Virus record (IMG/VR): IMGVR_UViG_3300047408_000090
Span: 1 to 50,593 of that record
DNA length: 50,593 nucleotides
Strand: one strand, 5' to 3'
Origin: a virus
Shown: positions 29,685-47,183 of the stretch, piece by piece
How positions within the stretch are numbered: the stretch's first letter is position 1
Layout of the letters: every line of letters starts with the position of its first letter
Notes under the pieces: generated by a model
Database searches by the model: none
What the model was told of the DNA's origin: nothing
Seen by the model: only the letters and a program-made list of their open reading frames with translations
Translations under genes and position numbers: made by a program

Positions 29685-30349
29685 GAACTTAATGCCACAA
29701 TATCACGTTGCATGAAAGCCGGGTGCACGGTATTATTCTCAGCAATCAATTCGTCGCTACGCGATCCATCGCCATAGATGCGATTAGACAAAGTCAATGC
29801 CGGATAATTAACTGCCCAATGATATTGAAGAACACGCGGTAGTTGCCGCTCGGTTGCAGACATATGTTGAATTAATAATGCTGCTAACAAAACAAAACTT
29901 TGATAATCACTAGACGTAAACGAGTCTGCCTTATTAAGTTTTATGTCATCAATAATTACAGTCATCGCATCCATCAATTCATCAATTTCACTGCGGCTAC
30001 TAAATTCCATAACAGCTATTACTTGACTCTGTTCGACAAAAGAAAATAGAATACCTGCATTGACAATAACTAATCCTAAATTATAAAGTGGCGTTTCAGC
30101 AAATAAAGAAATACGAACCCGATCCATCGTATTAAGCGCAGCACCGGCTATACGTGCCTGTTCAAAACAGGCAAACAATTCCGTACCAATAACTTTGTTA
30201 TCAACCAGCGTGCCGAAGTCTACCATGAACCGCCCAACGGCAGTACGTAACTTAGCTGCATCAACGTTCGACGTAACCGGAAATAACAAGAGCTCGGTTA
30301 TCATACGACCAGCGATTTCTTTAGCTTCTGTCAATTCAGATTTCTGCAT
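29681..30349 (-). CDS. C-terminal part of a DNA-circularisation-like (gp43) protein
   Basis: A 222-residue mainly helical protein with a mitochondrial-like start (KEIAGRMITELLLFP). In Mu-like phages the single gp43 gene has a DNA_circ_N domain and a long helical tail; here the tail is a separate gene that starts at TAATG, right at the stop of the DNA_circ_N gene at 30349. Thus it is either a split version or an independent baseplate partner. AT-richer than its neighbours. Confidence 0.6.
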   Translation of the reverse strand: MQKSELTEAKEIAGRMITELLLFPVTSNVDAAKLRTAVGRFMVDFGTLVDNKVIGTELFACFEQARIAGAALNTMDRVRISLFAETPLYNLGLVIVNAGILFSFVEQSQVIAVMEFSSRSEIDELMDAMTVIIDDIKLNKADSFTSSDYQSFVLLAALLIQHMSATERQLPRVLQYHWAVNYPALTLSNRIYGDGSRSDELIAENNTVHPAFMQRDIVALSS

Positions 30350-30861
30350 TAACCTGGTCCCAACTGCGCATCATCTGCAGTCGCAGCAGCACTCTGTCCC
30401 GTGGTCTGCGCTTGACCCTGCACTTGGAAGGCGCTACTAATTTGCTCTGGTGTATTTCCTGGTGAACCTAATTCAACAAACGTCATTTCAAATGTACAGT
30501 ACCCGCCTCGTTCGCGCGTTTCCGTAACATTATACCGTTCACAGATACAGAGTTTCGGTTCAGCCAGATAAGGATCGACGAGCTCTCCCCCTTGCCCGCT
30601 ATCCAACGCATTCATTAATTCACGCTTAGGTATATTATAACTCGGACCAATCAAATAACCCGTAATCTGATAACGTACAGCCGATCTTCCCATATCTTCG
30701 GCGTAAGGTGTATCCCGCTTAGGGTACTCATGCAGCACCACCCTGCGGCCACCGCTTCGTGCTTGCTGTTCAACGTGATACTGCACGCCACAATACGAAG
30801 CTGGCATGCCGCTAAACTGTAAACGCCACGGTGCCGGTGCTACTTCTTTAATCGTTGCCAT
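30349..30861 (-). CDS. DNA circularisation protein N-terminal domain (Mu gp43-like)
   Basis: A 170-residue DNA_circ_N domain: FSGMPASYCGVQYHVE, GRRVVLHEYPKRDTPYAEDMG, YQITGYLIGPSYN and GYCTFEMTFVELG. Despite its name the domain belongs to the baseplate hub region of Mu-like myophages. It ends at a Gln-rich tail and the next gene starts over its stop. Here it lies after the spike genes, not before gp44 as in Mu. Confidence 0.85.
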   Translation of the reverse strand: MATIKEVAPAPWRLQFSGMPASYCGVQYHVEQQARSGGRRVVLHEYPKRDTPYAEDMGRSAVRYQITGYLIGPSYNIPKRELMNALDSGQGGELVDPYLAEPKLCICERYNVTETRERGGYCTFEMTFVELGSPGNTPEQISSAFQVQGQAQTTGQSAAATADDAQLGPG

Positions 30862-30864
30862 CGT

Positions 30865-31158
30865 TTACCCATAAGCAAAAGTTGCGCCGCTACCAGCAGC
30901 AGTCATCGGATCGCAATGCGGTGCTCCAATCGGAATGCATAGATCGTCTTGCTGTGCGTGATCTGGAGTATTAACGATAACCAATTTACCCTGAATGAAA
31001 ACAGACGTACCAGTTGGAATAAGTTGACCGTCACCATCCGTATTAATATCATCCTTCACTGCCCACAACCTTCCATCGACATACGTGGTACCTTGCCCAA
31101 CTACAATCGTAGCTGCACCGCACACTCTCGTATCACCTTGTCTATGCGCGGCTGGCAT
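30865..31158 (-). CDS. PAAR-motif spike tip protein
   Basis: A 97-residue protein. Its Pro-Ala-Ala-His start (MPAAHRQGD) and the pattern VFIQGKLVIV..D, CGAAT, GAPHCDPM fit PAAR proteins, which sharpen the tip of contractile tail spikes. Cys and His likely bind a metal. It follows the gp45-like spike gene, overlapping it as TAATG. Confidence 0.85.
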   Translation of the reverse strand: MPAAHRQGDTRVCGAATIVVGQGTTYVDGRLWAVKDDINTDGDGQLIPTGTSVFIQGKLVIVNTPDHAQQDDLCIPIGAPHCDPMTAAGSGATFAYG

Positions 31159-32057
31159 TAGTTATGGTCAATCCTTGCTGACGTAAGTTTAATATTGCCA
31201 CTGGTAATTTCAATACTCGACCCGCCAACCTTTAACGTCATCTTATCGGAAAGCATTTCGAGTGTACATGTACCAGCTCCTCCGACATCCAAGAACCATC
31301 GCTTAGCAGATTTGTCGTAAACACCAACAAGCTTATCACCAGGAGCGTAGAACTCAACCTTATTAACTGAACTGCGAACTTCTGTATTAACGCTATCGCC
31401 TTCATGTTTATATTTTTCCTGCTGCGAACTTCCACCGCTTGACCCTGTGTCCTGCAACGTTGCCTGTGTACCAGCTGAACCCCCGCTACTAGATTGGCTT
31501 TGCTGCTTATCAATCTTGTGCGTCTGCATCTTTTTATTAACATGCCGCAAGCTAACCATTCGCGTCTGCTTAGTCTTGCTGTCCTGGACAGACGTTCCAT
31601 CCAACGATGTAATGTACGTACCATTATTCTTAAACAATACCATCTGCTCCGAACCGTCCGGAGCATAATGCGCGCCTTCGCCTTCGCTCATCCCGTAGGG
31701 TCGTACCCTTCGATCGTCAACCATAGCAACAGGGTGAGACCGAGACCCACCGAGATATAACATAACAGCTTCAGCAGCAGGTCCTGTGGGTTGATCATGA
31801 TTCCAATCACCTTCCTCGCTGGAATTAGATTGCTGCGAAGGCTTTTTCTGATTTGGATCTTCCTGCTGTTTAATCGGAAACGCTGTTGTGCCTACCGCTT
31901 GCCAGCGTTCAAAATCTGACGGCGTTTCACTATGTGTAACGTCCGCATACTTTACCTGCTGCATCAGGTGATCGTCATCGAACTCGCGAATGGTCGCACG
32001 TGCAGTACTCATACGCGCCTTACGTGTCGTGTCAGTTAATGTTGTGCGTATCGTCAT
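31158..32057 (-). CDS. Baseplate spike protein, Mu gp45-like
   Basis: A 299-residue protein. N-terminal MTIRTTLTD and a small OB-like part (EAVMLYLGGSRSHPVAMVDDRRVRP), then a Ser/Gln-rich loop (about 190-215) and beta-strand repeats at the end (LVGVYDKSAKRWFLDVGGA, MTLKVGGSSIEITSG). This is the plan of the Mu gp45/P2 gpV membrane-piercing spike. PAAR protein and hub follow in the standard order. It overlaps the hub gene stop as ATGA. Confidence 0.87.
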   Translation of the reverse strand: MTIRTTLTDTTRKARMSTARATIREFDDDHLMQQVKYADVTHSETPSDFERWQAVGTTAFPIKQQEDPNQKKPSQQSNSSEEGDWNHDQPTGPAAEAVMLYLGGSRSHPVAMVDDRRVRPYGMSEGEGAHYAPDGSEQMVLFKNNGTYITSLDGTSVQDSKTKQTRMVSLRHVNKKMQTHKIDKQQSQSSSGGSAGTQATLQDTGSSGGSSQQEKYKHEGDSVNTEVRSSVNKVEFYAPGDKLVGVYDKSAKRWFLDVGGAGTCTLEMLSDKMTLKVGGSSIEITSGNIKLTSARIDHN

Positions 32058-33136
32058 TGCTGCGGTGTTGGTACACCCTCCCCGAGAGCCTTGGTATTTA
32101 CAAGTTCTAACTGCGTGCGCGTACCGGTTGTGTTATCCTGACTGAACGTCGCGCTCTTGAGAATAAGTGCAGTGCCATTCATCACCAGCATCGGTGACTG
32201 CACTGTCACATTCTTTCCGCGTTCCCATAAACCTCCGGATGGTTTCAGCCAGCCATAAACTGTCGCGTAGACCGTTACGTATGACTCCATCATCCAATTA
32301 CTTTCCGACTGCGCGCGGCCTTCGTGCAGCTCCTTAGTAAAAAATGGTATCTCTGGAATTACCACACCAGGAATATATTTCGGACCAAACGTCTCAAACG
32401 TCTTGGAAACAAAAGGTACACTCGCAACCTTCGCACCCCACTGATCATCATTACCCGGTCCCTGATTTGGCGACGGCACGCCACCAGCCTGATTGGGATC
32501 GTAAATAACTTCGCGGCCTTCCAACATATTCTTACCTTCAACGACGCTATCACCGCCACCTGTACCGCCAACTAAAATACAAAAATTACCGAACACGTCT
32601 CCCGCATGTGCAATCCCGATTGGACTACCGGGCACACCAAGATGCCGCGTTAACGTATCAATAAAATCATGTACCGACTCACCGGGTGTAACCGAATAAC
32701 GCGGGATCTTAAAATTTGGTAACTGTCCACCTTCAATCTTGAGATTAATCTTTAGTGGTTTCAGCACGCTACGAATAATCTGCTCTGGTGTATTATTCTT
32801 AAACTCACCAGTCTTCGATATGACACTCGAGGTTGCCATCGGTATGTTGTTAGCACACTGAATTTCAATGTGATGCCGCCGTGCATCAACGAACACTTGC
32901 CGTGTCGTAACCTTGCCAGTAAAAGCCAATTGTCCAGCCAGCGTAACCGTGCAGGACATTCCCGGCATGATCTGAAGCTTGGACAGATGCACAGATAACG
33001 GCGATGCTTCGCTACAAGTAAAGCGGCACGACATCGCTGGCATCTCGCGTAACTGATGCTTGACCGAGACCGTTTCCCAATCCTGGTAATTCGTCCCGTT
33101 CACCGTAAGAATAGCTATCTCTGTTGGCGCTACCAT
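32054..33136 (-). CDS. Baseplate hub protein, gp44/late control D-like
   Basis: A 360-residue protein. N-terminal AILTVNGTNYQDWETVSV is the usual first strand of Mu gp44-like hubs; SVTPGESVHDFIDTLTRHLG in the middle is a motif of the D-protein family, and a final beta-rich piece has KNVTVQSPMLVMNGTALIL. It forms the hub ring that holds the spike. The gene is next to the tape measure and spike as expected. Confidence 0.88.
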   Translation of the reverse strand: MVAPTEIAILTVNGTNYQDWETVSVKHQLREMPAMSCRFTCSEASPLSVHLSKLQIMPGMSCTVTLAGQLAFTGKVTTRQVFVDARRHHIEIQCANNIPMATSSVISKTGEFKNNTPEQIIRSVLKPLKINLKIEGGQLPNFKIPRYSVTPGESVHDFIDTLTRHLGVPGSPIGIAHAGDVFGNFCILVGGTGGGDSVVEGKNMLEGREVIYDPNQAGGVPSPNQGPGNDDQWGAKVASVPFVSKTFETFGPKYIPGVVIPEIPFFTKELHEGRAQSESNWMMESYVTVYATVYGWLKPSGGLWERGKNVTVQSPMLVMNGTALILKSATFSQDNTTGTRTQLELVNTKALGEGVPTPQQ

Positions 33137-33137
33137 G

Positions 33138-35351
33138 TCATTCGAAAGAGTATGTGTTGAACGCAGTCACGCCACCACCAGCGACCGCAGCCTGTGGAGA
33201 ACGCTTTATGTTAGTTGCAATAAACGGACTGGCACCCTTTTCCCAAACACTACCCGGTTTATCCTTATCCCCGAAATTAATATCAACCGTTGCGGTGCCA
33301 GTGTTACTACCGCTTGCATGCCGCAGTGCATTATCAATCGCAGCACGTGGATTACCGAACCGATCGTTAAACGCCACACCACCCGGCAAGAATGGAATAG
33401 CTTTACCCGATCCACTCCATACGCCAGTTCCTGCCGCCGCATCCGCTGCTCTCTGTCTCTCTGCCCACCGACGACCCGCCTCACCATGCGCAGAGAACCA
33501 CGCGCCTTCAACTTTATGCATCCCCCAATACTTCTGGTTCGCCATGTACTTTGCGAAATTTGGATCACCTCGCATACCTTGATCAGTCGCGTAATCAGTA
33601 ATGTTTGATCCGGCATACACCTTTGCTAGTGCGGCTTCTCCCTCCGCTGCGATTTTTGCAGAAATATTTCCACTAATAATACCATGCTTCACCGGACCGT
33701 ATTGCCCAGAAAAAAGTGCCTGACGAATTGTCTGATGACGCATCGCAGCCATATTAAACAGCTGCTCCATATTAGATTGAATGCCGCCTTCGTGTTGCAT
33801 CGCGTCAATGGCAAATCGTTTAAGTTTCGGATCACCTTCCAATTCTTTCTTGAACCCCGCGCGTTGCTCGGCAAGCGTACCACTCGGTCCGCTATCGCCA
33901 AGATCACCGGTCGTCTCCGCTGGTCCACCGCCACCCTTACTCTGCGGAAACGATTGACCCGATCCTGGACCGCTGCGTCCCATACCTCCAGCTGGACCAC
34001 CAGTCGCAGCACCAGGACCTACGCCAGTCCCCGGCACGCCACCCGCACCGAAGGCACCAGAACCGCTGCCACTACCTTCTTTCTGGTCCCACTTTTGAAA
34101 CGTATCGCGCATATCACGCAACAATTTATTTGAGTCCTTATCTGTCTCGACTGTCTCCTGCACAAGCAACGACGATCCCGGCTCGACTTCAGCTGCACCG
34201 GCTTCCATACTAAATTGCTTTCCAATCCAATCCCACAAACCACCGGCCTTGCCGCCTTCCGGTCCACCGGGCAATTGGCTGTTCATACTATCTATGATCG
34301 CGCGCTCGGTACGTATGCTACCTAACGGTAACGTCTTATCCTTTTCGTCTTTCTGTTCACCTTCTTTCTTCTTGCCAGTCCACTTAGTAAGGAACGCATC
34401 GACTTCACCAAACGCTTTTACAACCCAATCAAATTCTTGTTTCGTTGTTGCTAGCGCGGGCATCACATACGTATTAAAGAAAGTTCTAAAATTATCTGCA
34501 AACTCATGTGCCTTTTCGTTTAAGCCATCGATCCCTTCCTTACCCATCATCTTATTAATACCCTCGATCATCGTATACGCCATGTCGGTCCACAGGCTGG
34601 TACCGATAGTCTCGAGGTTCGTCATCGTCTTGTGATACTTCGCGGCCTCACCTTCCTGAAATTTCCAGGGTTCAATCAACCCCTCCATTCCAACTTTACC
34701 AGCCTCGAACGCTGCACGCGATAAACCAGTAACAGTTGGTAACCACGCTTTGAACCGCTCACCACCATTATTATAAGCTTGCTGAAGAACGTTCAACGCT
34801 TCCTGCTGCTTACCGGCATTCATCAACTGACGAACTTGTTCAGCCAGCGCAGGACTACTAGCCTGGAGTGATTTATAAAACGAAGACGTTTCTTGTAACG
34901 CTAACACTTCCTGTAACTTAGATCCAATACTCGCGATACCACTCGACGCTTCGCTCGCATCAACTCCAGCCGCAGATAATTGCGTCCGTAAATTCTGAAC
35001 GCTCTGAACTGTGAACCCGGTATTAGTAGCAAAATTACGTAACTGCAACTCACCAACCGCAAACGCATCCAGCGCCTTGGCAACTCCAGCAAAGCCAACC
35101 GCAAGACCACCCGCGCCTAGCAGCGTCTTGGCTATTCCCGCCGCAGCTGCGTCCATCGCCTTTATCGGACCGCGCGTATAATGCTCAACGACCTTACCAA
35201 ACCGCTCGAACTCATCTGCAAGATTGCTGCCACCTTTGCTGCCAGCATCATTGAGACTACTAATTTTAAGTTTTAAATTATCGACTTCTTTTCCGAGCTG
35301 CTGGAAGAATGCCAGCATCTGGTCTGCATCGAAATTATTCTGCTGCGGCAT
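33138..35351 (-). CDS. Tape measure protein 2 with muramidase-like C-terminal domain
   Basis: A 737-residue tape measure homologue. N-terminal part (DADQMLAFFQQLGKEVDNL) and the middle are about two-thirds identical to the protein at 35351-37318: LALQETSSFYK, VRQLMNAGKQQEA, GGERFKAWLPTVTG, MEGLI and KYHKTM. A Gly-rich linker (about 420-480) leads to a C-terminal SleB/lysozyme-like domain that starts with E521 in AMQHEGG and has LFSGQYGPV and GSNITDYATDQG. It would set tail length and cut peptidoglycan during DNA entry. Start ATG 35351 overlaps the upstream stop (TAATG). Confidence 0.85.
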   Translation of the reverse strand: MPQQNNFDADQMLAFFQQLGKEVDNLKLKISSLNDAGSKGGSNLADEFERFGKVVEHYTRGPIKAMDAAAAGIAKTLLGAGGLAVGFAGVAKALDAFAVGELQLRNFATNTGFTVQSVQNLRTQLSAAGVDASEASSGIASIGSKLQEVLALQETSSFYKSLQASSPALAEQVRQLMNAGKQQEALNVLQQAYNNGGERFKAWLPTVTGLSRAAFEAGKVGMEGLIEPWKFQEGEAAKYHKTMTNLETIGTSLWTDMAYTMIEGINKMMGKEGIDGLNEKAHEFADNFRTFFNTYVMPALATTKQEFDWVVKAFGEVDAFLTKWTGKKKEGEQKDEKDKTLPLGSIRTERAIIDSMNSQLPGGPEGGKAGGLWDWIGKQFSMEAGAAEVEPGSSLLVQETVETDKDSNKLLRDMRDTFQKWDQKEGSGSGSGAFGAGGVPGTGVGPGAATGGPAGGMGRSGPGSGQSFPQSKGGGGPAETTGDLGDSGPSGTLAEQRAGFKKELEGDPKLKRFAIDAMQHEGGIQSNMEQLFNMAAMRHQTIRQALFSGQYGPVKHGIISGNISAKIAAEGEAALAKVYAGSNITDYATDQGMRGDPNFAKYMANQKYWGMHKVEGAWFSAHGEAGRRWAERQRAADAAAGTGVWSGSGKAIPFLPGGVAFNDRFGNPRAAIDNALRHASGSNTGTATVDINFGDKDKPGSVWEKGASPFIATNIKRSPQAAVAGGGVTAFNTYSFE

Positions 35352-37318
35352 TACTCGTACGCAAGCTGGTTGGACTTGTTAAGCTTCAATGTGTTGAACA
35401 CTCCACCCATCTCCGTATTAGTTTTCACACCGTCCGGCACGTTATGCAAATTGACATTAAGCGCAGCATTCCAAGGACTACTTGTATTCTTAGCTCCGAG
35501 TGCAGCATCGATCTTTGTCCTGTCTTGCTGCTGCGCTTGCACTGCATCGACCGCAGTCTTACCAGCAAACCGTGTATCCATATCCGTAAGCTTGCGTCGC
35601 CGTGCACCGTACTGGTCTGCAAAGATTGCGGTACCATCTTTCTCGTTATACGATCCCGGCACGATCGTCATCACGTGACCGCCTTGCGCACCAGCGGGTA
35701 ACAGCTCATTCGGATTGCCTCCATAACGCCGATGAAAATAAGTACTGACCATACTGCCGAACGGATGACCTGCAGCGTTAATATCATTAGGATCTAGTTT
35801 CTCACCCCACTTATGCCACGACGTTGCGATCGCTGCACCCGTTGGAGGTTTATATCCTGCCGATTTAACATAACCAGTGGCGACCATCCCGCACGCAGCT
35901 CCAGACATGCGGTAGCCTTTCTGGCTAAATAATTTCTGCAACCCTGCAACGTCACCAGCGCGGCCTAATATTTCTGCCTCGCGCATCGTATCAGGATCTA
36001 TCTTCTTGCCGCCTTCATCATTTAAAGCAGCAGGACCACCGGGACTAGCTGCGGCGCTACCTCCGCCTCCAACTCCACCTGGTGCACTTACACCAGTACC
36101 GGGTACTCCAGCCGCACCAACTCCACCGTTAACTTGATCGTCCCACTTTTGAATAATGTCGCGCATATCCTGCAACGATTTATTTGAATCCTTTTTTACA
36201 ACTATAATTGAATTTTGATCAACCCCTGATTTAGCTGAAGCATCACCAACACCGAGTTGCTTCTTCATCCAATCCCATGGACTGAAACTTTTATTCTTCT
36301 CATCTTCATTTTGCCGGCGAATAAATTCTTCAGGTCGTAACCGGCCACCTTGTCCAAAGTCACGCGTCTCTGCTTGTTTGTTAAACCAATCAATAATATC
36401 TTTAGCTTCTTGAAACGTTTCCTTCAGTGTTGGAATAACACTATTGTCAAACCATGTTTTAAAATTATCTGCAAACTTGTGCGCCTTCTCGTTCAACCCC
36501 TCGAGACCTTCACTCCCCGTTAATTTAACGATACCTTCCAAAACAGTATTCGTTACAGAATTCCACACACCATCAAAAATCGTACCGAGATTAACCATCG
36601 TCTTATGATACTTCGCAGCATCGCCATCGAGCTCCTTCCAAGGCATTATCAAACCTTCCATGCCTTGCGCTTGCGCCTCCCACGCAGCTCGAGATATTCC
36701 TGTGACCGTTGGCAACCACGCTTTAAATCGTTCACCACCTTTATTAAATTTCTCCTGAAGATAATTCATCGCCTCCTGCTGCTTACCGGCATTCATCAAC
36801 TGGCGAACATTTTCCGCCATTGCCGGTTCACTAGCTTGCAGCGCCTTATAAAATGAAGACGTTTCCTGCAAGGCAAGAACGTCCTGTAACTTAGCTCCGA
36901 TACTCCCGATCCCCTGCGCCGCTTCGTTTGCATCGATACCAGCAGCAGAAAGCTGCACGCGCATTTTCTTCAAACCATCGGTAGAAAAGCCAGTATTAAT
37001 CGCAAAGTTTCTGGTATGTAATGCGCTAACCGCAAAGTGATCGAGCGCCTTGCCAACACCACCTATGACCAACGCAAGCTTAGCAACACCTCCAGCCGAA
37101 CCAATGAGCCCGGATATGCCTGACTCCATTCCACGCAATGCACCTTGCGTGTGACGTTGAATTGTCTGACCAAACTTTTCAGTATGGTCAGTCATTTTCT
37201 TCATCGCATTGCCAGCTTCGTTAAGGCTGACAATCTTAGTCTTAAAGTTATCTATCTCCTTTCCCATCTGGCCGAAGAAAGCCAACATGGCATCGGAATC
37301 AAAATCCATGTCAGGCAT
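35351..37318 (-). CDS. Tape measure protein 1 with cysteine-peptidase-like C-terminal domain
   Basis: A 655-residue tape measure homologue that shares its first 330 residues with the next gene. Instead of the lysozyme-like end it has an NlpC/P60- or CHAP-like domain: C476 in GAACGMV and H548 in GGHVMTIV, with YGGNPNELLP and a basic end. It likely cleaves peptide stems of peptidoglycan. A Gly-rich linker at about 390-430 separates the halves. The pair has the same architecture with swapped enzyme domains, so a duplication with domain replacement is likely. It starts at ATG 37318, overlapping the frame-shifted chaperone by 8 bases. Confidence 0.85.
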   Translation of the reverse strand: MPDMDFDSDAMLAFFGQMGKEIDNFKTKIVSLNEAGNAMKKMTDHTEKFGQTIQRHTQGALRGMESGISGLIGSAGGVAKLALVIGGVGKALDHFAVSALHTRNFAINTGFSTDGLKKMRVQLSAAGIDANEAAQGIGSIGAKLQDVLALQETSSFYKALQASEPAMAENVRQLMNAGKQQEAMNYLQEKFNKGGERFKAWLPTVTGISRAAWEAQAQGMEGLIMPWKELDGDAAKYHKTMVNLGTIFDGVWNSVTNTVLEGIVKLTGSEGLEGLNEKAHKFADNFKTWFDNSVIPTLKETFQEAKDIIDWFNKQAETRDFGQGGRLRPEEFIRRQNEDEKNKSFSPWDWMKKQLGVGDASAKSGVDQNSIIVVKKDSNKSLQDMRDIIQKWDDQVNGGVGAAGVPGTGVSAPGGVGGGGSAAASPGGPAALNDEGGKKIDPDTMREAEILGRAGDVAGLQKLFSQKGYRMSGAACGMVATGYVKSAGYKPPTGAAIATSWHKWGEKLDPNDINAAGHPFGSMVSTYFHRRYGGNPNELLPAGAQGGHVMTIVPGSYNEKDGTAIFADQYGARRRKLTDMDTRFAGKTAVDAVQAQQQDRTKIDAALGAKNTSSPWNAALNVNLHNVPDGVKTNTEMGGVFNTLKLNKSNQLAYE

Positions 37319-37831
37319 CGTCGTCCACCGGTCTTAATACCTCTTCTAATTTAGTCGTCCACTTGACATGCCGGGCAATTTCTGAAAACGGCATATCCAG
37401 AAACTCGCGCGGATTACGCCCGTAATATTTCGCTAACCGATAACAATCCAGGATAAAGTTGCCCTCTACATCTCTGGAATAAAAAAACGATGCGCCAGTG
37501 CCAAGGCTGCATACCCCCAATCTTTTGGATGCATGGCCTTGATTGTAGAAGGTGGCACCCCAGCAAGCCGAGACATCATGGCAAACATTGCCCTTGTCTC
37601 GAAAGTCATCTTTGGCATTTCGCCAGTCATGAAATCGATCATAACTGGCGTTCCACAAATCTCGATATCTCCAGCGGTTGGTTCACGAAAACGTAATTCC
37701 TGAACCTCTTCACCGTGCGCAATAACTTTCTTCCGCAGCGGTATTACAAGATCGGTGGAAGTAATTTCTGCCCCATTGACTTTCTTTGGCTCGTCCGTCT
37801 TGGGTGCTTGTGGTTCTGTCTCGTCTACCAT
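37311..37831 (-). CDS. Frameshift fusion of tail assembly chaperones (G-GT type)
   Basis: Ribosomes that slip one base back on T TTT TTT (37487 to 37481) leave the chaperone frame just before its stop and continue in a second frame to 37311. The extension reads YSRDVEGNFILDCYRLAKYYG..FLDMPFSEIARH, which matches the C-terminal part of many tail chaperone fusions. The full protein is about 173 residues. In lambda and other phages both forms are needed to load the tape measure. The heptamer is at the right place for -1 slippage. Confidence 0.85.
37466..37831 (-). CDS. Tail assembly chaperone (Mu gp41-like)
   Basis: A 121-residue protein whose middle (KVIAHGEEVQELRFREPTAGD) shows the FluMu gp41/tail chaperone motif. 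It begins at ATG 37831 immediately after the tube stop and ends within the slippery run's downstream region, at TAG. It is the short form of the frameshift pair and should coat the tape measures during tail assembly. Confidence 0.85.
   Translation of the reverse strand: MVDETEPQAPKTDEPKKVNGAEITSTDLVIPLRKKVIAHGEEVQELRFREPTAGDIEICGTPVMIDFMTGEMPKMTFETRAMFAMMSRLAGVPPSTIKAMHPKDWGYAALALAHRFFIPEM
37481..37487 (-). other. -1 programmed frameshift site
   Basis: T TTT TTT with the codons CGT TTT TTT in the chaperone frame. It lies four codons before the TAG stop; slippage joins the GT-like frame. A run of seven T in this place, with a conserved second frame after it, is strong support. Confidence 0.8.
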
Positions 37832-38194
37832 TTATTGGATCTCATCGCAGCTGATGCCTTCCCACTTGACCCGAACGAGGCCATCGCGGGCATTGATCGC
37901 AAGTGCCGAAACGCACCAGCCTTCTCTCAGCACGTACGTCGCATTGTTTGCGAGCTCTGCCGTGATCGTAACATTGACCTGCGCCTCGAAAGCTTCGATC
38001 GACAAACCGGGTACCGTCGATACGTCTCCTTCGATAGAGGGTACGCGCGGCAGCTCCGAGTAACCATGAATATAATCCTGGCCAGCTAGACCCGCGCGCT
38101 CGATTACCGAAGGCGTGATAGTAAAGTTACCACGCAACGGATACTGATTGCCATCCACTTTCAGATAGGCAATTCCTGCTATTCGCTGAGCCAT
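37832..38194 (-). CDS. Tail tube protein
   Basis: A 120-residue protein. GIAYLKVDGNQYPLRGNFTI at the start is the Mu gpM-like tube motif, followed by KWEGISCDEI at the end. It forms the inner tube under the sheath. AAGGAAG precedes ATG 38194. The sheath gene is upstream and the chaperone downstream, the usual order. Confidence 0.88.
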   Translation of the reverse strand: MAQRIAGIAYLKVDGNQYPLRGNFTITPSVIERAGLAGQDYIHGYSELPRVPSIEGDVSTVPGLSIEAFEAQVNVTITAELANNATYVLREGWCVSALAINARDGLVRVKWEGISCDEIQ

Positions 38195-38207: not shown

Positions 38208-38291
38208 CTATGGCTTTGGAATTAGAAACGCTGCTAGAAAACCAACGATCACCAGCAGGACAAAGATTGTGACCTGCTGGTGATTAGTCAT
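38208..38291 (-). CDS. 27-residue membrane peptide, doubtful
   Basis: A short frame starting at ATG 38291 over the sheath stop (TAATG). The product has one hydrophobic helix (VTIFVLLVIVGFLAAFLIP). It lacks a clear ribosome binding site and is made largely from the hairpin arms below, so it may be chance. Overlapping small membrane genes occur elsewhere in this phage, hence the entry. Confidence 0.3.
   Translation of the reverse strand: MTNHQQVTIFVLLVIVGFLAAFLIPKP
38248..38284 (-). other. 12-bp hairpin between sheath and tube genes
   Basis: ATCACCAGCAGG (38248-38259) pairs exactly with 38273-38284 around a 13-base loop. It lies just after the sheath gene in the intercistronic gap. No T run follows, so partial termination, RNA protection or processing between two highly expressed genes would fit. 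Confidence 0.7.
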
Positions 38292-39805
38292 TAAGCCGCA
38301 ACAACAGTATCCACACCGCGATCGTATTGCAATCTGAACTGTGCAAGGACCGCAAAAACTCTGAGCTGGTTCACAAGATCTGGTGGATACAAAACGTTAA
38401 CACGATTGGGATCATTAGGATCACGTTCCACAATCAGATTGGTTTTGAACGCTGCACCATTTTCCACCAGTCCGTTGAATTCATCAATGCGGTACTGCGC
38501 AACTAATTCCGCCTTGATAATTTTCGGAGTGACGATCGCTTGGCCAACACCAAAACGTGTACCATCATCTGCGAGTTTATGTCTTGGGAATTTACTGGTA
38601 ATTGCTTGCCGCTGATTGCGCAGCAACTTAGCAAGCGTCGCCAGCGTTGTCACGAGCTCGTACGCGTCGTCGCTGTTGCCATACAAGTTCTTCTGGTACG
38701 TCGTGTTCTCCCGCATGATCATCGGCACGTCCACCGCAGTACGCTGCGTTGCAAGACCAGCATACGCAAACGCATTAAGCTCCGACATAATGAACCGGGT
38801 ATGGAATGGCGCTGGCAAACAACTTGCCAGCGACAAGGTCTGTAGTGGTCGTGCTGGATCGTTGATCAATGCACGCGCGGCCTTAGCCGTATAAGCCGCT
38901 GCCCATTCGTAACTCGGTGTCGGTGCACTCGGCTCGATCGCCATTATCGACATCTGCGCACTGTTGCGTGTCTCACCGAACAAAAGCAGGTTCGTATAAG
39001 TCTCGCGCTTAGCATTGAACAAATGCCCATAATGCTGCCGCATCCATCCCCAGCGACCGGTATCGGAAAATCCGAACTCAGTTTCCCATGCCAGCATAGA
39101 AGTCGAGTCCGTGTACGGCATACAGACGTAATCGATTTCCGTTTCACCGAGTGCACTGATAGCATTCGTAAACACTGGCACACCCGTACCACCGGTAAAC
39201 GCGGTATACGTCAACGTCAATCCAATCGGCAATTGCTCTCCGCCGATCGTACCATAGTAACTATCCGACATCTGGATTTCGTCACCTAGCGTACCTTTAA
39301 ACTTTGCCGTAAGTGTAACAACCCCCGCTGCAGCGATTGCAGTAACCGGCAAATTAGGATTAGCCATGATCGCCGTTTCAATAGCCGTGGCGACGATATC
39401 AACCGTATCCGTTGCTCCTACGTAGACCGGCACAGTTTGACCAGCGATGTAAAGATTGATCGTACCAGCTTGTGTCGGTGCAGTCGCAACAGTAATTGTA
39501 CCTGTTGCTGCTGCTCCTGTTGGATCTGCAACAGGCAACCCCCATACTTCATTTGCCCAATTGTTCGCAAAGAACACTCTAAACATGTTTGCCAACATCG
39601 AACCTGCACCGAAGAAATGATCTGCGTCAGCTTGTGACGGGACCGCGATCGGTACATCAGGTGGCACGGTACCAGTCGAGAGCATAGAACCAACCAGCAA
39701 TGACCGTCCAGGTGTCGCACCTAAGCCAGCCATCGAAGGATCTAATTCGACCCAGTACAAAGGCATCCGCCAATTGGCTGGGATATTATTAAACGAGATA
39801 GGCAT
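38291..39805 (-). CDS. Tail sheath protein
   Basis: A 504-residue protein. The start PISFNNIPANWRMPLYWVELDPS is typical of Mu gpL sheaths, followed by GLGATPGRSLLVGSM and the ATTVATAPTQAGTINLYI-like domain. The C-terminal quarter (RQAITSKFPRHKLADDGTRFG, PNRVNVLYPPDLVNQLRVFA) is the conserved end that joins neighbouring subunits. GGAGAGG precedes its ATG. It contracts to drive the tube through the envelope. Confidence 0.92.
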   Translation of the reverse strand: MPISFNNIPANWRMPLYWVELDPSMAGLGATPGRSLLVGSMLSTGTVPPDVPIAVPSQADADHFFGAGSMLANMFRVFFANNWANEVWGLPVADPTGAAATGTITVATAPTQAGTINLYIAGQTVPVYVGATDTVDIVATAIETAIMANPNLPVTAIAAAGVVTLTAKFKGTLGDEIQMSDSYYGTIGGEQLPIGLTLTYTAFTGGTGVPVFTNAISALGETEIDYVCMPYTDSTSMLAWETEFGFSDTGRWGWMRQHYGHLFNAKRETYTNLLLFGETRNSAQMSIMAIEPSAPTPSYEWAAAYTAKAARALINDPARPLQTLSLASCLPAPFHTRFIMSELNAFAYAGLATQRTAVDVPMIMRENTTYQKNLYGNSDDAYELVTTLATLAKLLRNQRQAITSKFPRHKLADDGTRFGVGQAIVTPKIIKAELVAQYRIDEFNGLVENGAAFKTNLIVERDPNDPNRVNVLYPPDLVNQLRVFAVLAQFRLQYDRGVDTVVAA

Positions 39806-45089: not shown

Positions 45090-46493
45090 CTACCACGTCA
45101 CACCGGAGACCCACGCAACGGTCCCTGGACGACGGATCGTCCAGTTGATCGGCAGGATAAGCCGCAGCGCCAGCGAGTCAGTCTGGAACATTGACTTGAC
45201 TGGGAAAGCCGCAACCGCTGGCGTACCAGCCGTTGTAATGTCCGATGGCGAAGTGTCTTCAAGATGCAGCGTAGCTTGATCACTGATTTCGAAGCGCGGT
45301 CCATCTCCCGTGACGGAAACATAATCCGCCGCGTCCATCGCGATGACTGTGCCTAGCGGGACAGTACCCGCATCAATGATCGGCCAACCCCCGAGGTTGC
45401 CCGCTGCAACTTCGGCTCGGAACGGGAAGGCTCCGAAGCCGGGCATCGCAACAAGACCAAGGCTGTTCACTTGCTGTGGATTCATCAGCCACACAGGATT
45501 GCGAACGTTACCGAGCGTGCCGGTGATCAACGCACCAGTGAGTTGTTTGATATCGCCAACCACTGCCGTAAAGCCACCACCCGCCGTCGGGGTCAGACCC
45601 GCAACGCCGTTAAGAATACCGGCAGGACGAACGAGCGTTGCCGCACCGGTATCCAACAAGATCGCGTCCAGAGAAATTGCCGTGTCTTCGCCGATGGCTG
45701 CACGCAGCAGACCTTCGATCGCCGGCACGGAGTGTTCATCAATTTCTCGTGTCCACGTCGTGATGACTGCCATTTTCTTTGGCGTCAAGGTTTGGCTAGT
45801 GAACTGCCCTTGACGTACCGGGATCGGTTGACCTTCACCGACAAACGATCCAGCAATCGACGGCGTACGCGATCGCGTCGGGATGATGATCTTCCCGTTA
45901 CGACCGAACGTCAGTCCTAGTCCAGCAGCCGAGAGCCTCGGGAATACTGACTTGGGTAGCAACGTCTCCATAAAGTCGGTAACGATCTGCTGAACGAGCT
46001 CTGCTGCCCAGCCAACGACTGTCGTCATAGCCGGAGCAGTTGCCGCGCGCGTTGCCCACTCCACCACCGCGCGAGTTTGTTCATCGTCGCCGTAGATGGC
46101 TTTGCGAACGTCGCTCGTGTCCTTATGATGAAGATGCGAAAACAACTGCACAACACCAGACCGTACCAGTAGGTCAGTCGTTGTAAGTTGTTTCTTCGGC
46201 ATACCGAATGGACGCGGGGATGCCGCCGCAGCTGCAGCCGGTTTACCCTTGCCAGCCGGAACGATCGCGCGTCCGGTTGTGTCCACCGCCGTCGTTGCCA
46301 AGTTGCGCTCGGAGTCACGCAGCAGCGTGATGGTCCGTTCGATCTGGGCAATTTCATCGTTGAGCTGTTTGGTCTTTTCCATCTGCTCGTCGCTGACATT
46401 GTTGTCGTCGAGACTTTCCAGAAAAGTCTTCAGCTCGTCAATCTTCTCGACCTTACGCTTTTCCGTATCCGCAATTCTCTGTGAGAGCGACAT
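45090..46493 (-). CDS. Major capsid protein from an internal start
   Basis: In frame at codon 231 of the fusion gene, ATG 46493 (MSLSQRIADTEKRKVEK) follows AAAAGGAG with 8 bases of spacing. The product is 467 residues, normal for an HK97-type capsid protein with its N-terminal delta domain. It would be the abundant form, while the 697-residue fusion supplies protease in small amounts. The start is inferred from the ribosome binding site and family length, not shown. Confidence 0.7.
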   Translation of the reverse strand: MSLSQRIADTEKRKVEKIDELKTFLESLDDNNVSDEQMEKTKQLNDEIAQIERTITLLRDSERNLATTAVDTTGRAIVPAGKGKPAAAAAASPRPFGMPKKQLTTTDLLVRSGVVQLFSHLHHKDTSDVRKAIYGDDEQTRAVVEWATRAATAPAMTTVVGWAAELVQQIVTDFMETLLPKSVFPRLSAAGLGLTFGRNGKIIIPTRSRTPSIAGSFVGEGQPIPVRQGQFTSQTLTPKKMAVITTWTREIDEHSVPAIEGLLRAAIGEDTAISLDAILLDTGAATLVRPAGILNGVAGLTPTAGGGFTAVVGDIKQLTGALITGTLGNVRNPVWLMNPQQVNSLGLVAMPGFGAFPFRAEVAAGNLGGWPIIDAGTVPLGTVIAMDAADYVSVTGDGPRFEISDQATLHLEDTSPSDITTAGTPAVAAFPVKSMFQTDSLALRLILPINWTIRRPGTVAWVSGVTW

Positions 46494-47183
46494 GGTCGCT
46501 ACTCCTTTTCGTACATGGTGCATGACGGCTTGCTTGCCGCTGAACCTGCGACGGCGCATGCTGTCTTTATTGCCTTGCTCGGCAAAGACGACATTCATCG
46601 TATCAGGGGAAATCTTTAAACCCTTGGCAACCGCCAAGGCATTCGGATTGGCAGGAACGCTGACCAGTGATGTCTCCACTAATTCCTGCTTGGTAAATCT
46701 GTAACCGCCGAACGGATCTTCTTTATCCAGCGGCTCGTATTCCTTCGGCCGGAAACCAACCGATACCGCTTTGAGAATACCCGCGTCGATCAGTCTGCGG
46801 ATTTCATCAATACGCTGGCTCGTTCCTTCCGGAGCCATCTCGAGATGCCCGCGCAATTGCTTATTTTCCACGCGCAGATTTTTCCACTTACCAATAGGGA
46901 AGTCACTGCGATGACCGAACAGCGCAATGGGATTTTTTTGAAACGCCTCCAGGTCCCAGCCGTCTGACATGATGACGTCATCCATCCGGTCAGACGTTTC
47001 GTCCGACATGACAAACTCCATGCCGCTGACTTCGGCAGCGTGGGTCTTGTGGATAACCTCTGTCACTTTACGTTCCTCATCCCAGATCGTTTGACACTCG
47101 TCCTGATCGAGCTCGTCGGTGCACCGATCCATGAAGTCGGAATAATCCTCGTCGTCATCCGGTGGCGGCATCTTGGCGTTCAT
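45090..47183 (-). CDS. Prohead protease-major capsid protein fusion
   Basis: A 697-residue frame. Residues 1-210 are an HK97-type serine prohead protease with H91 in FGHRSDFP and S141 in AVSVGF, and LVSVPANPNALA at the end. Residues 231-300 are the helical delta domain that aids assembly, and about 330-697 are the HK97-fold capsid protein (VVGWAAELVQQIVTD, PSIAGSFVGEG, ITTWTREIDEHSV). There is no stop between the two parts. GGGAG precedes ATG 47183. A strong internal start at 46493 suggests that the capsid part is also made alone. Confidence 0.9.
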   Translation of the reverse strand: MNAKMPPPDDDEDYSDFMDRCTDELDQDECQTIWDEERKVTEVIHKTHAAEVSGMEFVMSDETSDRMDDVIMSDGWDLEAFQKNPIALFGHRSDFPIGKWKNLRVENKQLRGHLEMAPEGTSQRIDEIRRLIDAGILKAVSVGFRPKEYEPLDKEDPFGGYRFTKQELVETSLVSVPANPNALAVAKGLKISPDTMNVVFAEQGNKDSMRRRRFSGKQAVMHHVRKGVATMSLSQRIADTEKRKVEKIDELKTFLESLDDNNVSDEQMEKTKQLNDEIAQIERTITLLRDSERNLATTAVDTTGRAIVPAGKGKPAAAAAASPRPFGMPKKQLTTTDLLVRSGVVQLFSHLHHKDTSDVRKAIYGDDEQTRAVVEWATRAATAPAMTTVVGWAAELVQQIVTDFMETLLPKSVFPRLSAAGLGLTFGRNGKIIIPTRSRTPSIAGSFVGEGQPIPVRQGQFTSQTLTPKKMAVITTWTREIDEHSVPAIEGLLRAAIGEDTAISLDAILLDTGAATLVRPAGILNGVAGLTPTAGGGFTAVVGDIKQLTGALITGTLGNVRNPVWLMNPQQVNSLGLVAMPGFGAFPFRAEVAAGNLGGWPIIDAGTVPLGTVIAMDAADYVSVTGDGPRFEISDQATLHLEDTSPSDITTAGTPAVAAFPVKSMFQTDSLALRLILPINWTIRRPGTVAWVSGVTW
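46502..46506 (-). promoter_or_regulatory. Internal Shine-Dalgarno sequence for the capsid protein
   Basis: AGGAG on the minus strand within codons of the protease part (RKGVAT), 8 bases before ATG 46493. It decides whether the capsid protein is made separately from the fusion. Confidence 0.65.

Follow-up and report, generated by a model that had tools for sequence, protein, structure and literature searches.

The window analysed here, a virus record of 50,593 bases, encodes a contractile-tail module in which the slot of the tape measure protein, between the tail assembly chaperone and the baseplate hub, is filled by two adjacent genes, A and B, whose products share a paralogous N-terminal ruler region and end in unrelated enzyme domains: a cysteine-peptidase-like (Cys) domain in A and a domain designated Lyz, as a label, in B. 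On comparative evidence a mixed presence of both proteins in one tail is favoured, and it appears rather likely that both full-length rulers would be packed together, with one virion delivering two complementary peptidoglycan hydrolases. The chances seem about even that the window represents a wider class of phage tails with a heteromeric central bundle, in which two or three paralogous tape measures, each bearing a different peptidoglycan hydrolase, would have arisen repeatedly by tandem duplication and exchanged their enzyme cassettes.

Paralogy and divergence of A and B

Residues 1-395 of A and 1-424 of B align at 49% identity in BLASTP searches (E 2e-126), and the DNA of the two genes is 70% identical over 628 bases. 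The N-domain alignment scores 929, far above shuffled sequences (mean 41.6, maximum 68 in 200 shuffles), whereas the enzyme domains are unrelated, their alignment (score 30) being no better than that of shuffled sequences (mean 34.2). The initial annotation of this DNA had proposed adjacent tandem paralogues that diverge beyond a common N-terminal part, which these comparisons and the exact gene coordinates bear out. Its estimate that about two thirds of the first 330 residues are shared proved slightly high for identity (55.9%) and slightly low for similarity (72.9%), and the residues it had named, C476 and H548 in A and E521 in B, are correctly placed.

The rulers of A and B differ by a synonymous divergence (dS) of about 2.0, with a ratio of nonsynonymous to synonymous divergence (dN/dS) of 0.158. 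Comparison with related contigs indicates purifying selection on both genes, with dN/dS of 0.05-0.10 (against contig L079 and, for enzyme domains, L040). The values against L079 are 0.059 for the A ruler, 0.081 for the A enzyme and 0.051 for the B ruler, and that for the B enzyme against L040 is 0.098; the rulers compared with L040 fall lower still than this range.

Identity of the tape measures and their ruler regions

Both genes lie at the tape-measure position between chaperone and hub. B matches the PHROG tape-measure family phrog_2276 (E 4.8e-8), as do 8 of the 17 N-domains of the family examined, and by its sequence kinship with B the product of A can likewise be taken as a tape measure. 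Position, paralogy and the PHROG matches of B and its relatives uphold the assignment of both genes as tape measures in the initial annotation. Peak hydropathy over 19 residues reaches 1.65 at A71 and 1.55 at B73, close to the cut-off of 1.6 usually applied to a hydrophobic segment.

Ruler length was counted by a script from the protein start to a conserved end motif. In the lineage of the window (type I) both motifs were found in six of eight pairs, with A/B lengths of 376/405, 386/402, 368/408, 385/404, 380/402 and 386/399. In type II, the lineage with the enzymes in reversed order, they were found in two of six pairs (364/377); the script missed one copy in the remaining pairs of both types, and it missed all rows of the lineages termed V, P and Q below. 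The rulers of single-copy phages of type III measure 376, 377 and 388 residues (n=3). Since the rulers of two-copy phages have about this length, each copy makes up an entire ruler, as opposed to one half. In a lineage with three tape measures the rulers are longer, at 492 residues in L153, 478 in the second copy of L156 and about 445, counted from its open reading frame (ORF) start, in the third copy of L156.

Beyond the enzyme domain each chain ends in a short C-terminal tail. Profiles of the A tail and of the B tail both match the tails of the type III single-copy proteins (for example L060: 8.7e-18 and 1.6e-9, respectively), and kinship between the two tails is suggested by these profile matches to relatives. 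In the triple phage the ends of two copies are alike, at 57% across 93 residues.

The enzyme domains

The residues C476, H548 and D568 of A are invariant in all 19 aligned Cys domains, including the one on L094, an otherwise distant single tape measure. A structure of the A domain predicted from this alignment has a mean predicted local distance difference test (pLDDT) score of 67, with most ten-residue blocks between residues 51 and 210 of the model at 70-94. Foldseek alone returned no match to this model with E < 0.001. Re-ranking of Foldseek's list by VIA, the only step that placed NlpC/P60-like folds first, gave as best match the Tse1/Tae1 type VI peptidoglycan amidase (4fge_C; Z 8.3 over 115 residues, 3.6 angstrom, 10% identity), followed by NlpC/P60 proteins (3h41, 6.9), the diffocin baseplate (8v3w_H, 6.1) and phi812 CHAP (5.6), although by the tool's own warning values below about 8 may reflect a common arrangement. 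The A domain thus resembles the type VI amidases and NlpC/P60 peptidases in its predicted papain-like fold and conserved Cys, His and Asp, and differs from them in its 10% sequence identity. As none of the 19 members, A included, matches NlpC/P60 or CHAP in Pfam at the curated cut-off, the domain is called NlpC/P60-like, without family membership being implied. Its ranked fold matches, its conserved Cys, His and Asp and its position on a tape measure, taken together, suggest a papain-fold wall peptidase, in agreement with the cysteine-peptidase-like end that the initial annotation had assigned to A.

In several relatives the same slot, ahead of the C-terminal tail, carries a Pfam CHAP domain (L136, E 5.9e-7; L179, 1.6e-5; L167, 1.9e-5), of which only that of L136 passes the curated cut-off of 26 (score 30.3), those of L167 (25.5) and L179 (25.8) lying just under it. 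A aligns with the CHAP tape measure of L136 at 34% over 105 residues, but itself has no CHAP match.

Nine residues of the Lyz domain (R497, P508, E521, E529, N533, Y551, S582, T589 and D590) are invariant in 29 aligned members. E521 had seemed variable in a 17-row alignment, which was ascribed to gap placement, and forms a single invariant column in the 29-row alignment. No lysozyme or transglycosylase family appears among the Pfam and PHROG matches of the 29 members. A PDB sequence search with the domain found no relative, and Foldseek with its poor structure model (pLDDT 50) found no match among PDB and viral structures. A suspected likeness to SleB/CwlJ was not supported by Pfam. The lysozyme-like end attributed to B in the initial annotation is accordingly putative, drawing on invariant polar residues (the glutamates E521 and E529, 29/29, among them) with no family or fold match. 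Glycan cutting by B is likewise a guess, made from these glutamates and from the peptidase-like domains with which Lyz is paired. Lyz domains also occur on long ORFs in many other phage contigs. A separate arrangement is seen in L144 (3022-6396) and L145 (1734-5108), where the domain lies near the N-terminus (residues 169-315) of a 1125-amino-acid (aa) protein and not behind a ruler.

Pairs, reversed pairs and single copies among relatives

Fifty-eight records, comprising 57 contigs and the window, were searched with profiles of the N, Cys and Lyz regions; the contigs are partly redundant (e.g. L040/L041, L053/L054 and L035/L036/L052), and 24 of the 58 records are too short for scoring by both enzymes. 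The search for relatives with one or two copies that the initial annotation had proposed recovered the order Cys then Lyz in 19 records (in three of which only the enzyme end of the first copy remains), the order Lyz then Cys in 10 (one cut), and single-copy forms. Its description of the enzymes as swapped is thus literally true among relatives, since in those 10 records the opposite copies carry them. A single tape measure with N and Lyz regions stands directly between tube and hub in L058 and L060 (2/58), with a third case in L131, outside the 58-record count, and in L094-L096 (3/58) the one tape measure bears a Cys domain and has a distant N region. L136, a single-copy phage, combines its CHAP domain with Lyz on one chain. 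A single tape measure, which the initial annotation had regarded as the normal state, is found in three named relatives, PY223 (550 aa), IFTN9 (559 aa) and BgManors32 (613 aa).

Three tandem tape-measure paralogues, of 1165, 1343 and 1010 aa, were observed in L156 (1-9513) and L153 (3170-8013); the three paralogues of the triple phage carry Lyz+VanY, M23, and a third domain without assignment. L142 (3963-9805) has a tandem pair of 1212 and 740 aa, 37% identical over 478 residues; its tail genes do not match those of the window, and a sheath match (phrog_23) lies upstream of the pair. In L157 (12884-17822) three neighbouring ORFs 3' of the baseplate genes share segments at 40-46% identity, and perhaps form a tandem fibre array. 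A within-contig repeat in L140 was dropped as a tandem case, the repeated ORFs being different from the Lyz-bearing ORF.

Megablast and tblastn searches found no relatives of A or B among named phages, nor was a named-phage relative found for L119, the third copy of L156, L135, L178 or L142; for the N-terminal part of the L137 tape measure there were matches to named phages, with low coverage. When bacterial genomes were scanned twice for the N-domain and Cys profiles, 51 and 46 pattern matches came up, none of which was confirmed as a relative; no host is therefore proposed.

Probable recurrent duplication, and movement of enzyme cassettes

A first tree was built from 33 of 78 N-domains, kept at 97% identity after rows without a visible enzyme had been dropped. 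In it the two copies of the reversed lineage II form one clade (support 100/100), as do the two copies of lineage I (97/95), to which single-copy type III is sister. Orthology of the two lineage II copies to A and B, whichever way round they are paired, was rejected by tree tests, the approximately unbiased (AU) p values being 9e-57 for grouping I-first with II-first, 1e-56 for I-second with II-first and 2e-67 for I-first with II-second. A tree of 41 N-domains resolved six tandem lineages, each as one clade: I; II; V (L157, L176, L178 and L179); T, with three copies (L153, L156 and L164); P (L142); and Q (L135), the second copies of L135 and L178 being cut by contig ends. Single-copy phages are sister to I (91/91, I itself having 96/95), to Q (100/99) and, more weakly, to T (92/89). 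Given that the copies within a lineage are each other's kin and that single-copy phages lie between the lineages, duplication has probably recurred, and repeated tandem duplication is the simplest reading of the tree.

Between the window and L040 dS is 0.22 and 0.17 for the two rulers, which are nearly identical, and 0.755 for Cys and 0.92 for Lyz, a difference suggesting that recombination has replaced the enzymes. The Lyz domain of the window is 72-78% identical to those of L110, L114 and L119 and 27-31% identical to those of L022 and L012; despite such divergent Lyz domains, the ruler of B shares 73% identity with L022 and 63% with L012. These patterns indicate that the enzyme domains are variable and travel as cassettes, from one copy to the other and from phage to phage.

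Potential mechanism and alternative explanations

The above observations point to a possible mechanism. A and B would be made from adjacent genes, probably by translational coupling, and would come to lie next to each other inside the tail tube of a single phage with a contractile tail, each chain running from an N-terminal ruler through a glycine-rich linker and an enzyme domain to a short C-terminal tail near hub and spike. The rulers would be constrained to fit each other, the tube and the chaperone, with the enzyme slot free to vary. At infection the two chains would pass out of the tube at its tip, A as a peptide-cutting cysteine enzyme and B as a probable glycan-cutting one. The presence of both in one virion, their stoichiometry, their ejection and both enzyme activities are what we infer from the comparative record. 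That both genes occupy the slot which in single-copy relatives holds the one tape measure, following the chaperone and preceding the gpP-like hub, supports two tape measures, and the occurrence of either enzyme on either copy supports a mixed bundle. That the copies of six lineages each form their own clade is as expected if rulers must fit together. We also count for a mixed tail the two enzymes on the one chain of L136, the three paralogues of the triple phage, the purifying selection on ruler and enzyme parts of both genes and the TAATG junction of A and B. Such a bundle also fits with a single chaperone pair ahead of two whole rulers, with the gene overlap and with enzymes that can sit on either copy.

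Several points weigh against this interpretation. Gene A on its own gave no significant tape-measure match in Pfam and PHROG searches. The C-terminal tails of A and B show no direct likeness (score 21, shuffled mean 23). The B ruler exceeds the A ruler by 13-40 residues in all six measured type I pairs, which a simple bundle of equal lengths does not explain. Solved tape measures are described in PMC10996793 as trimers or hexamers, that of diffocin being one homotrimer with its C-termini anchored on the spike; a tail with two different chains would depart from the three-fold symmetry of such bundles unless it held a 3+3 bundle. Finally, fewer duplications with later homogenisation of the rulers could give the same tree pattern as recurrent duplication; under either history the rulers stay alike within a phage lineage and the enzymes differ.

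Among the alternatives, the one with most in its favour, though still unlikely in our estimate, is that one copy is the working tape measure and the other a cargo or entry enzyme that keeps its ruler as a loading address for the tail tube. The PHROG family named 'lytic tail protein' is matched by 3 of the 17 N-domains, and the consistently longer ruler of B could set tail length alone; however, the separate entry enzyme is made less likely by the similar length of the two full-length rulers and the similar purifying selection on them, and by the reversed order in 10 of 58 records, which ties neither enzyme to one copy. A population of A-only and B-only virions with different entry enzymes would accommodate the homotrimer reported for diffocin in PMC10996793, but is improbable, as the TAATG overlap within one tail operon means that both proteins should be made in each cell and the two-enzyme chain of L136 suggests that both are wanted in one particle.

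An end-to-end arrangement, in which A and B together would set a tail about twice as long, has in its favour the short reach of a single ruler: at 1.5 angstrom per residue, the rate used in PMC9024508, 376-408 residues would come to only about 56-61 nm. It is nevertheless very improbable, in that single-copy type III phages have the same ruler length (376-388) together with tube and hub proteins closely related to those of the two-copy phages. Moreover, we know of no head-to-tail joining of tape measures. Least credible of all, with nothing found in its favour, is a recent neutral duplication or an assembly artefact, the latter a possibility that the initial annotation had raised: the dS of about 2.0 between the rulers, their dN/dS of 0.158 and the low dN/dS between phages speak against the former, and the same type of pair is found in many other contigs, with tandem tape measures in six lineages, and is therefore not an artefact of assembly.

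The tail module of the window

The features of the window are collected in Table 1. On the minus strand the tail genes follow the order sheath, tube, chaperone E with an overlapping second frame, A, B, gpP-like hub and gp45-like spike. The module is of the Mu-like contractile-tail type, with two genes in the slot where relatives have one tape measure. The Mu-like Bordetella phage PY223 has a like order of sheath, tube, chaperone, tape measure, gpP, gp45/V, gp46 and gp47. In PY223 a 400-aa DNA-circularisation protein stands between the single tape measure and gpP, whereas the window has the second tape measure before gpP and a short DNA-circularisation-like gene after gp45. Elsewhere in the window a Peptidase_S78 prohead protease and a Phage_capsid major capsid protein are fused in one ORF.

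Table 1. Features of the tail module and other genes of the window
Feature	Position	Strand	Remarks
Protease-capsid fusion	45090..47183	-	697 aa
Tail sheath	38291..39805	-	
Tail tube	37832..38194	-	
Tail assembly chaperone E	37466..37831	-	Pfam Phage_TAC_7, E 7.9e-10
TTTTTTTA run	37480..37487	-	probable slippery site for chaperone frameshift
Overlapping second chaperone frame	37311..37658	-	open to just inside the A start; probable frameshift extension
Gene A, first tape-measure paralogue, cysteine enzyme domain	35351..37318	-	655 aa
A ruler region	36158..37318	-	residues 1-387, up to KDSNKSLQDMRD motif
A enzyme domain, NlpC/P60-like	35528..36046	-	residues 425-597; C476 codon 35891-35893, H548 codon 35675-35677
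A C-terminal tail	35354..35500	-	residues 607-655
TAATG junction	35349..35353	-	A stop and B start share one base
Gene B, second tape-measure paralogue, Lyz domain	33138..35351	-	737 aa
B ruler region	34104..35351	-	residues 1-416, up to KDSNKLLRDMRD motif
B enzyme (Lyz) domain	33453..33869	-	residues 495-633; E521 codon 33789-33791
B C-terminal tail	33141..33305	-	residues 683-737
gpP-like baseplate hub	32054..33136	-	next gene after B
gp45-like spike	31158..32057	-	
DNA-circularisation-like gene	30349..30861	-	170 aa

Relation to known systems and significance

Tape measures with a peptidoglycan-hydrolase domain are described for T5, TM4, phiIPLA35 and, as Sit, for P1 (PMC6116005 and PMC9024508), and these resemble A and B in bearing a wall-cutting domain on the tape measure. 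They differ in that one tape measure is described there per phage, where here two or three paralogues carry different enzymes. In PMC3447690 the words 'two tape measure proteins' denote homologues, in databases, of peptides from SuMu. Full-text literature searches yielded no account of paralogous tape measures in tandem that carry different enzymes, subscription papers being mostly outside reach. A tape measure with a wall-cutting domain is thus already known, and tandem paralogues with different enzymes seem undescribed.

The general expectation has been of one tape measure per tailed phage, and the full-length bundle solved so far consists of one chain. Natural systems with two or three copies, alongside sister phages with a single copy, make several open questions about tape measures testable: how many chains form a bundle, whether these may differ, which ruler sets the length where they are unequal by some tens of residues, and how the tube is loaded with wall enzymes. 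The enzyme slot is, furthermore, a source of uncharacterised candidate wall-acting domains, Lyz included, in many phage contigs.

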